From Sphingobacteriaceae bacterium (GTDB lineage: Bacteria; Bacteroidota; Bacteroidia; Sphingobacteriales; Sphingobacteriaceae), in NCBI GenBank assembly GCA_029266635.1, contig JAQSWM010000008.1, positions 186,001 to 250,000 on the forward strand: a stretch of DNA of 64,000 nucleotides, given 5' to 3'. The position numbers and the translations under genes are program-made. This document shows, piece by piece, positions 32,513 through 41,464 of the stretch. How positions within the stretch are numbered: the stretch's first letter is position 1; every line of letters starts with the position of its first letter. The notes below the pieces were generated by a model. It was not told the DNA's origin. It ran no database searches and saw only the letters and a program-made list of their open reading frames with translations.

Positions 32513-34030
32513 TTATTCGTCTAATACCTGCCTATTTCTGATAGTTAAGTTCCTGATTTCACAATTCGCAAACTTGTCGGCGTTAAGATTTTTAACGGGG
32601 GCTACCGCGATGGGTACCTGAGGCTCGGCAGTGACCATCGACACATGCAAAGACGTTGCAGCTGGTTGTGCCACATTCCCTTTCCGGCTCCCAAAAAACC
32701 ACATCAAACTGACGGGATAATAAAACAGAGGTTCCAGTATAGAAGCGGCAAACAGCTTTGAAAGGCTGAAATTAAGCGTATATCGAAAAGTGAGTTCCTC
32801 ATATGCGATTGCGAGCAAAGACATACTAACGCAAAATAAATAAACCATTGATGCAACAATCAATACAGGTTGCCACCCGATATATCCAAACGCTGCCAAA
32901 CCAAGCAGCGAAACACATAACGTAAATTCGATTACGGGAGCAATAAGTTTTGAGAAGAACATGGACGCAGAACTTAGCGCCAGCCACTTGTAGGTGGGAT
33001 TAAAAAGTGCACGAGCGTGCGATCGTAAGCCGTCAGCAGTGCCCCGGATGCTGTTCTGATATTGTACGGCAGCCGCTGCAGGGTTACCCGGAGGAATCAG
33101 CCAGCAAATTTTATCCGGAATCAAGATAATTCGATGAGGCAGCAGATTGTCGATCATGTACCGCTTCATCCTGATGACGAGCTCTGCATTGTTTTCCACA
33201 CACTCGGGCATAAACCCACCGCAACTGATAAGCGTCGGCTTGTGGAACATGGCTACTGCCCGCGACACATGCAAAAGGCTGTTAAATCGGCTAAGAGCCA
33301 TATGTCGCAACAAAGAACTGCGCAGATGCCTGAGCACCTGGAACTTTGCTTGCAGCCCGCGGGGCGTGGAAAAAGCCACAGCCTGACCTCTCACAATATC
33401 ACTAGCATTGATACTTCGCACCACCGCTCCCGCCGCAATAACCTGTATTCTGCTCTCCATGAATGGCTTTACCATGCGGAGCAAAGCATCGGGCTCAAGC
33501 ATACAATTTATATTCAAACAAAGCAGCAGTTCATTTCCGGAAACATTTACGCCTGCATTCAGCGCATCACAACGACCGCCATTTAGCTTATCAACAACCG
33601 TCAACCTTGAGAAAGCGGGGTCGGATGATCGATATATCCCCTTTACTGCAGCGGTGGCTACGCGTTCGTTTAATAGAACGTCTGCACGTTGTAAATTGAA
33701 GGAGTTTATTAGCTTTTTAAGCGAGTTGTCTGTACTGCCATCATTGATAATGATCAGCTCAAAATCGTTGTAGTGGAGCGACAATAATAGCCGGACCTTC
33801 TCCAGGACAATTGCCGCCTGGTTGTTAAAAGGAACAAGTATTGAAACAGATGGCGCATGAGGAGAAGATAGGATATCCCGATGCTTTACCCCTTTGTTCC
33901 GGAGTATGTATCGCTTCATTTCTAAACCCGAAAAAAACGCAAGTACTGCATAAACGGCGATTAGGCAAAGAGCGTAGTAAAGAGCAACGCTACTTAAGAT
34001 TTGACCAATAGTGTGAAACATCCCGCTCAT
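32513..34030 (-). CDS. Family 2 glycosyltransferase-like membrane protein with degenerate catalytic motifs
   Basis: A 505-residue protein with the PgaC/HAS-type architecture: an N-terminal helix (about 10-34), a GT-A domain (60-310), two to three C-terminal helices (about 345-460) and a variable tail. The first nucleotide-binding Asp survives in IINDGSTD (Asp97). The DxD motif reads N173-I-N175, the catalytic-base ED reads N280-N281, and the QRxRW motif reads Q323-Y-Q-N-S. Related active proteins keep all three. It is encoded 1 nt after the HEAT-repeat gene and probably acts in that complex without, or with altered, transferase activity. Confidence 0.8.
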   Translation of the reverse strand: MSGMFHTIGQILSSVALYYALCLIAVYAVLAFFSGLEMKRYILRNKGVKHRDILSSPHAPSVSILVPFNNQAAIVLEKVRLLLSLHYNDFELIIINDGSTDNSLKKLINSFNLQRADVLLNERVATAAVKGIYRSSDPAFSRLTVVDKLNGGRCDALNAGVNVSGNELLLCLNINCMLEPDALLRMVKPFMESRIQVIAAGAVVRSINASDIVRGQAVAFSTPRGLQAKFQVLRHLRSSLLRHMALSRFNSLLHVSRAVAMFHKPTLISCGGFMPECVENNAELVIRMKRYMIDNLLPHRIILIPDKICWLIPPGNPAAAAVQYQNSIRGTADGLRSHARALFNPTYKWLALSSASMFFSKLIAPVIEFTLCVSLLGLAAFGYIGWQPVLIVASMVYLFCVSMSLLAIAYEELTFRYTLNFSLSKLFAASILEPLFYYPVSLMWFFGSRKGNVAQPAATSLHVSMVTAEPQVPIAVAPVKNLNADKFANCEIRNLTIRNRQVLDE

Positions 34031-35155
34031 TTAAAAGCCATTTAATGCGTGATGTAAAACGCCATTGCTATCAACAGTGTTATTCGACAGCATTGTTCCA
34101 CTCTTTTCCTGAGCCTTCAGCAATTCCCTCGCTTTATTTCTAATCTCAAATTCCGGAGCAGTTGTACAAGACCTCAGAAAGTCGATCTGCTCGCCCGATG
34201 CAATTTTGCCCAGCGCACCGAGTATTTCTGATTTAACAATCAGGGATTCATTTGGATATATTGTCACTAGTTCGCCTTCACAGAGCGGATCTTCTAATTT
34301 CCCCAAAACGCGAACAGCCCACACACGAACTTCCACGTTCTGATGTGCTAAGAGGTTCAGAAGCATAGGAATAGCTTCATGTTGCTGAAAATGTGCAATC
34401 AGCTTTAGGCAAAGCAATACAATGCTATCGTTGGCAGAAGCCAGCCAGGTTGAAAATGCCGGAATGTTAATACCGGGGGTTTTAATGATCGCATCAAAAA
34501 GCATCAATTGTCCCCAGTCTGAGAGCGGCTGCTGAATAGTGTTGAGAACTCCGAGCGGGTTTACCTTATCGAGCCTTAACAGGGCGGAATATGCATCAAC
34601 ATTTGCAACATCCACAGACTTATCCGCATAAGCTGATATCAGATCAACTAAGCCTGGAACCTGCATCAAGCTCAGCTCGCGAATTGCTGCCGCCTTATCC
34701 TTTGCTAAACGGCTGCGAAGCTTCTTTTTGGGATACTGGTCCAGGTTTAATCCCAGATAGATGTCTCTTAATACCTGCGAAGTGTTGCCACTGAAACTTT
34801 CCCGATACTCGAGGAGTTGCTGCACAAGTATGCGACGTACTGATGAACGGTGAATGGACATCCGTTCAAAGCGAGGTAAAAAATGCTGCACAATAGCTTC
34901 ATTGGTCTCGTTTTCGCCATAAACGATCATATTTCCGAGGATATTCGAAAACTTGTTCTTCCATATAGTATCGCGTTGAAGCCGATAGTACAAAAAACGG
35001 CGCTGCACAGCGATGAAAATGTATAACTCGGCGATCGCCGTCGTAAAGAAAACAATCAAAAACAGCGCACACCTGATTGCAATCGGAAATGAGGGAAGCC
35101 GGACTACAAATATTTCCCGCAGATAATCCCAGATGTGCAAAATGAAATCCTTCAC
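34031..35155 (-). CDS. HEAT-repeat membrane protein
   Basis: A 374-residue protein. An N-terminal transmembrane helix (about 25-48, LFLIVFFTTAIAELYIFIAV) is followed by HEAT/armadillo-type helical repeats, visible as AIPMLLNLLAHQNVEVRVWAV and QIDFLRSCTTAPEFEIRNKA. Homologues sit between a response regulator and a family-2 glycosyltransferase in Bacteroidota exopolysaccharide clusters, and the same order is seen here. It is probably a scaffold linking signal reception to the membrane partner. Confidence 0.8.
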   Translation of the reverse strand: MKDFILHIWDYLREIFVVRLPSFPIAIRCALFLIVFFTTAIAELYIFIAVQRRFLYYRLQRDTIWKNKFSNILGNMIVYGENETNEAIVQHFLPRFERMSIHRSSVRRILVQQLLEYRESFSGNTSQVLRDIYLGLNLDQYPKKKLRSRLAKDKAAAIRELSLMQVPGLVDLISAYADKSVDVANVDAYSALLRLDKVNPLGVLNTIQQPLSDWGQLMLFDAIIKTPGINIPAFSTWLASANDSIVLLCLKLIAHFQQHEAIPMLLNLLAHQNVEVRVWAVRVLGKLEDPLCEGELVTIYPNESLIVKSEILGALGKIASGEQIDFLRSCTTAPEFEIRNKARELLKAQEKSGTMLSNNTVDSNGVLHHALNGF

Positions 35156-35156
35156 T

Positions 35157-35534
35157 TTACACCACCTGTTTAAGATATTTCCGTACCCGGATGCTTAGTT
35201 CGCTAAGATTAAACGGCTTGGTGACAAAATCGTCAGCTCCAAGCTCAAATCCTTGCAGCACAATCTGTTCAATGCCCATTACAGACAAAATAATTACAGG
35301 CGTGTCTCTCGTTTCACGATTATTCCTGACGTTACTCAGCAGTTCCAATCCACCGATGTAAGGCATCATTATATCTGTGATGATGAGGTCGAAACGCTGA
35401 GAATTGATCTGTTCCATACCCTCCAGGCCATCTTTGGCAGTGTAAACGTCGTAGCCATCTTTTTTTAGGCGGAATTCTAATGCTTTAAGCATTAAGGCTT
35501 CATCTTCGACAACTAAAATTTTAGGCAGACCCAT
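35157..35534 (-). CDS. Single-domain response regulator (CheY-like receiver)
   Basis: A 125-residue stand-alone receiver: acidic pair Glu10-Asp11 (ILVVEDE), phospho-acceptor Asp54 in LIITDIMMPYIGG, and the Lys of DDFVTKPFN near residue 107. No output domain. It is the first gene of the three-gene operon with the HEAT and glycosyltransferase-like proteins (1-nt gaps), so phosphorylation likely signals by protein contact rather than DNA binding. Its kinase is not adjacent; the nearest one is the hybrid kinase about 4 kb away. Confidence 0.92.
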   Translation of the reverse strand: MGLPKILVVEDEALMLKALEFRLKKDGYDVYTAKDGLEGMEQINSQRFDLIITDIMMPYIGGLELLSNVRNNRETRDTPVIILSVMGIEQIVLQGFELGADDFVTKPFNLSELSIRVRKYLKQVV

Positions 35535-35723: not shown

Positions 35724-36731
35724 TTATCGCTGGAAGGCGTACACCTCGCCGTGCGATCCTGCCAGGAGAATAAGTTTTCCACCATTGCTTTTTGAAATAC
35801 TATTAAAACCTTGAGGCGAGAGTAATTTCCACGTTTTTCCCCAATCAGAAGAAATATCTGTACCGGTGGTACCTGTGGCGATGAAAGTCCCATCACCAAT
35901 ATAGCTGACACAAGAACGATAGCCAAAAGGTGCGACTTCAGGGAAACGCCATTTCCGGCCACCATTATGAGAATAGGCCATGTTTTGGAGGCGCAATGTG
36001 TCCTTCATATAGTCTCCGCCGACCGCCAAAATCTTGCGGGGACTTAGCACCTCAATTGAGAATATACCTGTAGAACTTCTTCCCTGCAAGATTGGGCTAT
36101 TGTAAACCTTCCATGTTTCTCCAAAATCTGCAGAGGCCAAGAGCCGGGATCTGCTTCCGCCCGTGGCAATCCAAACATGCTGACCCATTGTCCGGATGGT
36201 TGTGCCGCTGGCTGCGAAAGAGGCTTCGCCTTCGAACATCGGCTCTTTCAAGTTCGAAGAAATGTCCTTCCACGATTTTCCGCTATCCTCCGTCCTTAAA
36301 ATTTGAAGTTTATGATTGATTGGGTCACCGAACGCAATCCCATTCATCTTATCCGAAAAGTTCATCCCATCAAGGAAGATGTCTGGTGAGGAGTTTCGAT
36401 AAACTTCTTCCCAAGTTTTGCCTCCATCAACCGTCTTCAGGATTACGGCAGGCGATCCGGCATTAACAAGAATAGCTTCAGTTGCTGAGAAAGCTTCAAT
36501 ATCCCTAAAATCGAATTTCTCGTAACCCTTAACCTGATGCCATTCCCAGGAGGCTCCGGCATCTGAAGTACGTCCCACCCAGCCATTGCTTCCACTTGTC
36601 CAGGCAACATTATCTCCAGCAACAGACAGTCCGCGAAGGCTGGTATTTGTATCGGAACTTAGCTTTACAAGCGTTTGAGAATAGCTAAACGACACCTGAA
36701 GAAAAAGAAGGACGATGACAAGCCTGATCAT
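35724..36731 (-). CDS. Secreted YCF48/BNR-repeat beta-propeller protein
   Basis: A 335-residue protein from the ATG at 36731. That ATG overlaps the stop of the upstream DUF2147 gene (ATGA), indicating translational coupling. The signal peptide is MIRLVIVLLFLQVSFSYSQ. Repeats of the S-x-D-x-G-x-x-W type recur (TSDAGASWEW, TVDGGKTWEEV, TEDSGKSWKDI, SADFGETWKVY, SSDWGKTWKLL), as in YCF48/HCF136 and sialidase BNR propellers. Probably periplasmic, function unknown. Confidence 0.85.
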   Translation of the reverse strand: MIRLVIVLLFLQVSFSYSQTLVKLSSDTNTSLRGLSVAGDNVAWTSGSNGWVGRTSDAGASWEWHQVKGYEKFDFRDIEAFSATEAILVNAGSPAVILKTVDGGKTWEEVYRNSSPDIFLDGMNFSDKMNGIAFGDPINHKLQILRTEDSGKSWKDISSNLKEPMFEGEASFAASGTTIRTMGQHVWIATGGSRSRLLASADFGETWKVYNSPILQGRSSTGIFSIEVLSPRKILAVGGDYMKDTLRLQNMAYSHNGGRKWRFPEVAPFGYRSCVSYIGDGTFIATGTTGTDISSDWGKTWKLLSPQGFNSISKSNGGKLILLAGSHGEVYAFQR

Positions 36732-37159
36732 TTCACTCTCGTCCACACCTCCGACCTGCCGATCAAGGAAATGCCGATATAGCCTCTTATGTCCAGCTTA
36801 CCTTTTTCCGTATAGGTGATCTTGCAGCTATACGTCTTCCCCGACTTCGGATCGTAAATAGTGCCGTCTTCCCACACATTGTCTCCCCTGTACGTAAAGT
36901 TCCGTAGAAGTTCTAGCCCCAAAACGGGATGATTGCGCAAAGAAGCGTTGGGATTGTTAATGTCGGTTTTAGGTGTGCCATTCTCATTTGGCTCTTTCAG
37001 CCACACAATTTCGCCAAAGTATTTACCTGCACGATTAACGATCTGAATACGAGCTTCTCCTGTGGCGCTCTGCCAGGCGCCTACAATGGCATCTTTGTTC
37101 TGAGCATGAGCCGCCAACACAAATAAGGTTGCTATTAAAAGGAAATATAATTTTTTCAT
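36728..37159 (-). CDS. DUF2147 domain secreted protein
   Basis: A 143-residue protein with signal peptide MKKLYFLLIATLFVLAAHAQ, which sets the start at 37159. The DUF2147 core reads IVGAWQSATGEARIQIVNRA, then GKYFGEIVWLKEPNE and NVWEDGTIYDPKSGKTYSC, ending GRSEVWTRVK. The fold is a small periplasmic or outer-membrane-associated beta structure of unknown role. Its last codons overlap the start of the propeller gene. Confidence 0.88.
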   Translation of the reverse strand: MKKLYFLLIATLFVLAAHAQNKDAIVGAWQSATGEARIQIVNRAGKYFGEIVWLKEPNENGTPKTDINNPNASLRNHPVLGLELLRNFTYRGDNVWEDGTIYDPKSGKTYSCKITYTEKGKLDIRGYIGISLIGRSEVWTRVK

Positions 37160-37211
37160 AATGCTTACGCTAAAATACCATTTTGAAGTGGAGGAGATAA
37201 GAGACGGCAAT

Positions 37212-39691: not shown

Positions 39692-41464
39692 TCAATTGTT
39701 ATACTGCCGGCTGTGTATGGCCCACTTCTCTATAATTTTAACAAGCTCCTCAAGCTTTACAGGTTTACCTAAATAGTCATCCATGCCCGCTTGCAAACAC
39801 TCTTCCCTATCCCCCTGCATGGTATTAGCGGTCATAGCAATAATGATAGGCTGAACACTCAGGCAGAGCCGGATCATTCGCGTGGCTTCAAGCCCATCCA
39901 TCTCGTCCATTTGCACATCCATCAAAATGAGATCATATACATTGTGGCTTACTTCCTCTAAAACTTCCTTTCCGTTGCTGGTGATGTAGGGCTCATAACC
40001 AAGTTTATTGAGGATCTTAGTTACCAGTTTCTGGTTCATCACGTTGTCTTCTGCCAAAATGATCCGCAAAGGATATTTTTTAGCAAAATCTACTGAGAGA
40101 GTCGGCTTATCAGTCTCTACTACATCAGAATTGCGCAAAAGTCCAAGCACTTGTTCATTAAACACATGTTGCTTAACGGGCTTGCTCACGATGGCATTAA
40201 ACAAGCTATGATCCTTTTTATAGGCTTCGTTGCCAGTTTTATTCGTCAACATAAGCGGCAAGGCAGGATGCGATTTCCGGATATTTTGAGCAAGCTGCAC
40301 CCCATCCATTCCCGGCATCTGCATGTCTATTATCGCCATATCAAAATCTCCGCTCTCTCCTATTTGCTGAAGCGCTTCCTCACCCGAGCCTGCTGTTGTG
40401 ACGTCAAGCTTCCACGGCTGCAATTGCTGTTTAAGGAAATTCCTGAAAGTTTTATTATCATCGACAATCAGCACCTTTTTGCCTTTTAACGTGGGCAAGT
40501 CCAAGTTGAATAAGCGGCGTGGCTTTTTAGGGCTCTTGCGCACAAGAACTGAGAACTTCACTGTGGTGCCAGCATCCTCCTGCGAATCTATGCTTATGGA
40601 ACCGCCCATTAATTCAACCAACTTCTTACTGATTAGAAGGCCAACTCCGGCAGTACTATGAGTATTGAAACTTATTCCAGGATGTTGAAGCTCTTTTACA
40701 AGTTGGTTTAACTTCACCCGTGAAATGCCGGTGCCTGTGTCGCGGACCTCAAATTCAAGCAATACCTTATTACTTCGTTCTTCTTTGAAGTGCACGCCAA
40801 TAAAAATCTCTCCGGCTACGGTGAACTTGATGGAGTTCTCAATCAGGTTCATCAATATTTGGCGCAAACGCTCGCCATCTGCTACAATGTAAGCCGGCAC
40901 ATCGCTGTCTACATGATAGATTAGATCAAACATTGAACTCGCCGTTTTCAAGGCAAAGATTTCAAGTACCCCCTCTATGCATGTATGCAGATCAACGTCT
41001 TTTAATTCCAGTTCTTTGCCCGACTCAACTTTAGAATATTCCAAGATATCGCTCATCAGAATATCATTGATGAGCGTAACCAAGCCTTCGCCAGATTCTA
41101 TAATATTGTTAGTATAATCACGCTGCTCAGCGCTGAGCTTAGTCTCGTTCAGCAAAGAGGCCATACCAAGCATTGTCGTCATTGGAGTACGAATGTCATG
41201 GCTGATTTTGGAGATGAGATGGCTTTTATTTTGATCTGCCAGCACCGCTTCTTCGCGATATCGCTGTTCATTTAAACGAGCGTACGACAAGAGTTCAGAT
41301 TGTTCGAGAAGCTGCCTTTCTAAATCTGCTTTCTCATGTTTAACGGTATTCAACCTGTTGCGATGGAAAATATATCCGGCTAATGCCAACACACCCAGCA
41401 CGATGGCATCAATCCACCAGCTCGCCCGAAGCCCTGTTATAATGAGTATTTTATCTACTTCCAT
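39692..41464 (-). CDS. Membrane-anchored hybrid histidine kinase with two receiver domains
   Basis: A 590-residue protein. One transmembrane helix lies near residues 13-33 and leaves almost no extracytoplasmic sensor. A coiled coil (40-75) leads to the HisKA domain with phospho-His89 (KISHDIRTPM). The HATPase domain has NLIENSIKFT, VRDTGTGIS and GVGLLISKKLVELMGG. Two receivers follow: IVDDNKTF with IIDMQMPGMDG, and LAEDNVMNQ with LMDVQMDEMDG. There is no DNA-binding output, so its signal is passed on or used for protein control. It overlaps the preceding SPOR-domain gene by 10 nt. Confidence 0.92.
   Translation of the reverse strand: MEVDKILIITGLRASWWIDAIVLGVLALAGYIFHRNRLNTVKHEKADLERQLLEQSELLSYARLNEQRYREEAVLADQNKSHLISKISHDIRTPMTTMLGMASLLNETKLSAEQRDYTNNIIESGEGLVTLINDILMSDILEYSKVESGKELELKDVDLHTCIEGVLEIFALKTASSMFDLIYHVDSDVPAYIVADGERLRQILMNLIENSIKFTVAGEIFIGVHFKEERSNKVLLEFEVRDTGTGISRVKLNQLVKELQHPGISFNTHSTAGVGLLISKKLVELMGGSISIDSQEDAGTTVKFSVLVRKSPKKPRRLFNLDLPTLKGKKVLIVDDNKTFRNFLKQQLQPWKLDVTTAGSGEEALQQIGESGDFDMAIIDMQMPGMDGVQLAQNIRKSHPALPLMLTNKTGNEAYKKDHSLFNAIVSKPVKQHVFNEQVLGLLRNSDVVETDKPTLSVDFAKKYPLRIILAEDNVMNQKLVTKILNKLGYEPYITSNGKEVLEEVSHNVYDLILMDVQMDEMDGLEATRMIRLCLSVQPIIIAMTANTMQGDREECLQAGMDDYLGKPVKLEELVKIIEKWAIHSRQYNN

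Follow-up and report, generated by a model that had tools for sequence, protein, structure and literature searches.

A putative pseudo-synthase in a response regulator-HEAT operon of a Sphingobacteriaceae bacterium

Does a bacterium keep a membrane-embedded polysaccharide synthase once the residues that carry out its chemistry are gone, and if so, as what? We met this question in a 64,000-nucleotide stretch of Sphingobacteriaceae genomic DNA (the window), where the genes for a single-domain response regulator (RR), a HEAT-repeat protein and a family 2 glycosyltransferase (GT) form an adjacent, co-directional RR-HEAT-GT2 cluster (Table 1). A preliminary description of this DNA had given 1-nt gaps throughout the operon; this is true of the RR-HEAT gap, but HEAT and GT are separated by 0 nt. 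The same description had called the GT a selected pseudoenzyme rather than a product of decay.

Table 1. Genes at the RR-HEAT-GT locus of the window
Feature	Position	Strand	Remarks
Class I SAM methyltransferase, 184 aa	31896..32450	-	Sits at the position of the relatives' LtaS-like gene
GT2 pseudo-synthase (putative), 505 aa	32513..34030	-	Residues 1-450 predicted HAS/BcsA-like fold; tail 451-505 predicted disordered
HEAT-repeat protein, 374 aa	34031..35155	-	GTG start; N-terminal hydrophobic segment; orthologous to the HEAT genes in active clusters
Single-domain response regulator (RR), 125 aa	35157..35534	-	Phosphoacceptor motif TDIMMP and KPF present (read from sequence)
YCF48/BNR-propeller protein, 340 aa	35724..36746	-	Syntenic marker, upstream of RR in relatives; evolutionary rate normal
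DUF2147-family protein	36728..37210	-	Syntenic marker, homologous to the L047 DUF2147 protein; evolutionary rate normal

Family membership and loss of catalytic residues

The window GT scores above the Pfam cut-off for PF00535, and its best profile match is PgaC_IcaA (TIGR03937), at 71.8 bits and below the curated cut-off of 422 bits. It is 42% identical to the active orthologue in locus L047; active members of the group share 58-73% between genera. An AlphaFold2 model (pLDDT 84.3, pTM 0.83) was built from 45 rows that included active relatives, and indicates compatibility with the fold rather than actual folding. Its top structural matches were a mannosyltransferase (6yv7, Z 29.4) and the hyaluronan synthase CvHAS (8snc, Z 28.2, 3.7 A across 395 residues), and BcsA complexes also matched (9fnn, Z about 25.7). 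The predicted model is still HAS-like; the preliminary description, too, had the fold retained. Judged by homology and predicted fold, the window GT belongs by descent to the processive GT2 synthases of the PgaC/HAS/BcsA kind. It resembles PgaC/IcaA, NodC and class I hyaluronan synthases in fold, membrane topology and motif order, but D97 and Q323 are all that is left of the residues examined at the metal, base, QxxRW and gating-loop sites.

The motif positions first reported for this 505-residue protein were all exact: D97 (in NDG), NIN at 173-175, NN at 280-281 (within ENN, 279-281) and QYQNS at 323-327. In our alignment NIN, ENN and QYQNS fall without gaps on the DxD, GED and QRNRW of the family, which answers the objection that the catalytic residues might lie elsewhere in the protein. 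We also rejected sequencing error or misalignment as the source of the loss, as the in-frame changes affect more than eight motif residues and the conserved residues flanking them align gap-free. In NodC, mutants in DXD, ED and QXXRW are inactive (PMC4132801). The change of the base Asp281 to Asn is of the same kind as D302N in CvHAS, a variant used in structural work.

Two further losses had been missed. Glu71, in a YNE segment, is Gln in the window GT; it aligns as the equivalent of CvHAS Glu93, the second metal site (PMC12987647). A C-terminal WGxMxRxG motif is present in 42/42 active rows and in 0/3 catalytically dead ones. From its motif and position, not from structure, this element would correspond to the gating loop of HAS (WGTSGRK/R). 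The Trp of that loop is essential: XlHAS1 W491A and CvHAS W454A abolish activity (PMC11750622). The window GT thus has neither the DxD, xED and Q(Q/R)xRW set nor the gating-loop WG..R of an active processive GT2.

This state is rare in the family. Of 135 homologues (103 + 32), collected from 250-400 genomes in this family and from two named Bacteroidota contigs, 133 have DxD, (G/A)ED and QRxRW intact. The two exceptions, L086 (ETH/KEG/QKNAW) and L095 (EVD/KEG/QRKQW), both belong to genus g12 and are themselves dead; Glu71 is lost in these proteins as well as in the window GT. The motif loss is therefore real and rare, but not unique. A clade sharing the NxN/NN/QxxNS residues, which had been suggested as a check, was not recovered, since those exact residues are unique to this genome; it is the dead state that recurs.

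Gene order and partner genes

The gene order DUF2147-YCF48-RR-HEAT-GT is common to the window and its relatives L047, L052, L053, L055 and L057. Because this order is the same, the window GT is an orthologue of active enzymes and not a stray paralogue. The locus is thus orthologous to the RR-HEAT-GT2(-LtaS-like) clusters of the same Bacteroidota family and shares their conserved upstream genes. The active clusters differ from it in keeping the motifs and, mostly, in the presence of an LtaS-like gene, whether complete, truncated or fused.

In active loci the GT is usually followed by this gene for an LtaS-like phosphotransferase of the alkaline phosphatase superfamily. The gene is full length in eight loci; in L053 and L057 only the portion for its membrane region is present. 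The 236-aa proteins that follow the intact GT in these two (L053:6984-7694, L057:9472-10182) could be taken for unrelated proteins, but each aligns solely with the N-terminal membrane portion of the LtaS-like protein, having lost its catalytic domain, and what is left is conserved (47% between the two). L135:8161-11703 and L136:7865-11404 encode single 1180-aa proteins behind RR and HEAT, in which an intact GT2 synthase is fused to a sulfatase/LtaS-like domain, recalling the pairing of BcsA with the phosphoethanolamine (pEtN) transferase BcsG.

Downstream of the window GT, the LtaS-like gene is absent, and its best match in the genome lies elsewhere at 26% identity. For the methyltransferase at its position, no homologue was found near the relatives' loci. 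Both dead loci of g12 also lack the LtaS-like gene, but so do active g6 loci, and the association is neither absolute nor strictly defining. The YaiO barrel was present in 10/10 relative genomes tested and was not found in the window genome (95.8% complete). The preliminary description had remarked that a deacetylase and a YaiO-type barrel were not adjacent. For YaiO the absence extends to the whole genome; the usual partner here, however, is the LtaS/sulfatase-superfamily gene and not a deacetylase. Neither a further member of this GT family nor a further HEAT relative was detectable in the window genome, so the second, intact RR-HEAT-GT2 cluster that was to be looked for did not turn up.

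Variants of the cluster occur among the relatives. L059, L060, L061 and L062 have tandem GT2 pairs behind RR-HEAT, with a TPR-YaiO protein next in L059; we considered these as dead/active pairs and dropped the idea, as the motifs are intact in both copies. The HEAT gene of the otherwise intact cluster at L051:6251-7392 is split into ORFs of 145 and 209 aa, possibly by a frameshift or assembly error.

Selection on the altered synthase

If catalysis, the LtaS-like partner and YaiO have all been lost, an alternative to a selected protein is slow decay, with a weakly constrained RR-HEAT-GT module on its way out. The two partner genes that were not found fit this reading, as do the evolutionary rates and the codon use. 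Branch lengths for the window versus L047 were 1.31 and 0.23 for GT, 1.04 and 0.39 for HEAT, and 0.31 and 0.11 for RR, compared to 0.42 and 0.48 for the flanking DUF2147 gene and 0.47 and 0.45 for YCF48. The module is accelerated in the window lineage, GT most and RR less, while the flanking genes are not; therefore, constraint has weakened at least in part. Codon use of the window GT is slightly atypical, the least typical among 14 genes compared, although its codon-position composition is that of a coding gene.

Other evidence points away from decay. In neutral simulations started from the L047 gene, the open frame was kept in 1/400 runs at 80% identity and in 0/1600 at 70% or below. At the divergence of the window GT, neutrality would predict about 8-15 stops, yet frame and length are intact. 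The gene is thus not a neutral pseudogene, as its frame would not survive such divergence without selection. The losses are also unevenly placed. Of the catalytic columns, named from the HAS and NodC literature, the window GT keeps 2/11, versus 56/75 of the other slow columns (p 0.0005); these slow non-catalytic columns are in turn kept more often than fast ones (24/49, p 0.003). Thus, the losses were aimed at catalysis, and the scaffold is still constrained. Frame simulation and column retention indirectly support purifying selection on the window copy after catalysis was lost, and the confident fold prediction also speaks against decay.

The second dead lineage provides a more direct view. 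In each of two g12 species (G011 and G033), the dead GT stands in an operon with RR and HEAT, and a separate cluster carries an active RR-HEAT-GT/LtaS fusion. Between the two species the dead GT aligns over 454 codons with no gaps, with pN 0.206 and pS 0.75 (pN/pS 0.27, with synonymous sites saturated); pN/pS is 0.17 for its HEAT partner and 0.08 for its RR. The g12 dead GT is under purifying selection. Since both copies have Gly for the base Asp and Glu for the first DxD Asp, the loss of catalysis presumably predates the species split, and purifying selection has acted from then on.

The g12 proteins (L086/L133, L095/L134) parallel the window GT in their RR-HEAT-GT operon, in the missing LtaS-like gene and in the loss of the base Asp, second-metal Glu, first DxD Asp, QxxRW Arg and gating-loop-like motif. 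They differ in the replacement residues listed above, in the active cluster elsewhere in the genome and in their neighbours, which in L133 are an AraC regulator and a fatty-acid desaturase. A single dead clade of window and g12 GTs had an AU p of 0.46, and the HEAT tree groups them with support 14/0; as the branches are long, one dead clade is neither demonstrated nor rejected.

The original proposal of a selected pseudoenzyme is therefore backed by the frame simulation, the distribution of losses, the predicted fold and, above all, the purifying selection in g12. We regard slow decay of the window module as rather unlikely, and think it probable, from these sequence comparisons, that the window GT is an orthologue of RR/HEAT-associated processive GT2 polysaccharide synthases that lost catalysis and has been kept under selection as a membrane protein without catalytic function.

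Possible roles of the non-catalytic protein

Alternatively, the protein could be the scaffold, chaperone or regulator of another synthase that is active in the cell; the preliminary description had suggested a regulator or scaffold. There is precedent in COSMC (C1GALT1C1), a GT31 pseudoenzyme that, like the window GT, lost DxD and xED and is kept as a non-catalytic protein (PMC7185993), and the g12 genomes do hold an active fusion beside the dead GT. However, COSMC is eukaryotic, comes from a different GT family and is the chaperone of an active paralogue. The window genome has no such family member, second HEAT relative or YaiO exporter, and the active g12 cluster carries its own RR and HEAT. 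The suggestion is unsupported here, and a scaffold for an active sister synthase in the window genome is unlikely. Some twenty other GT2-like stretches occur in this genome, and a scaffold partner of that other kind is possible; overall, we consider a scaffolding role improbable.

It is highly improbable that the window GT is still a transferase, with a different donor, acceptor or mechanism that does not need DxD/xED: GT-A families lacking the xED Asp exist, including GT2 dolichol-phosphate transferases (PMC7185993), D97 and the nucleotide-fold half are retained, and the g12 copies keep E280 and W327 (L095 also E-V-D), but the window copy lost all four DxD/ED acidic residues, the second metal Glu, the R and W of QxxRW and the gating-loop-like motif together, and no recognisable metal site is left.

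A selected, non-catalytic window GT has probably been given a new role. In active clusters, the RR may act on the synthase by way of the membrane-anchored HEAT protein. In the window, the HEAT protein would likewise relay RR phosphorylation to the GT domain in the membrane, which is presumably what happens in the active relatives. The output of the switch in dead clusters could then be binding, conformational signalling or a membrane or channel function, replacing polymer synthesis. More tentatively, RR/HEAT-associated GT2 synthases may have become, perhaps on two occasions, a membrane module that signals or gates without catalysis and no longer makes polymer. They would then form a class of bacterial pseudo-synthases that is selected for a function of its own.

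Among kinases and proteases, pseudoenzymes are a familiar phenomenon; to our knowledge, it is unusual for bacteria to conserve a processive polysaccharide synthase that is dead. Our literature search found no description of one, of GT2 pseudoenzymes or of an RR-HEAT-GT2 operon. The fold of the window module is known and its operon type is known by sequence, while its functional state is new. If the module signals without polymer, the regulatory role of a membrane synthase and its chemistry would be separated; this is testable in the g12 species, which have both dead and active clusters.

A hybrid histidine kinase with two receiver domains is encoded close to the RR (window positions 39692-41464). 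The receiver shares only about 30% identity with the operon RR, but the kinase could be the phosphodonor of this RR.
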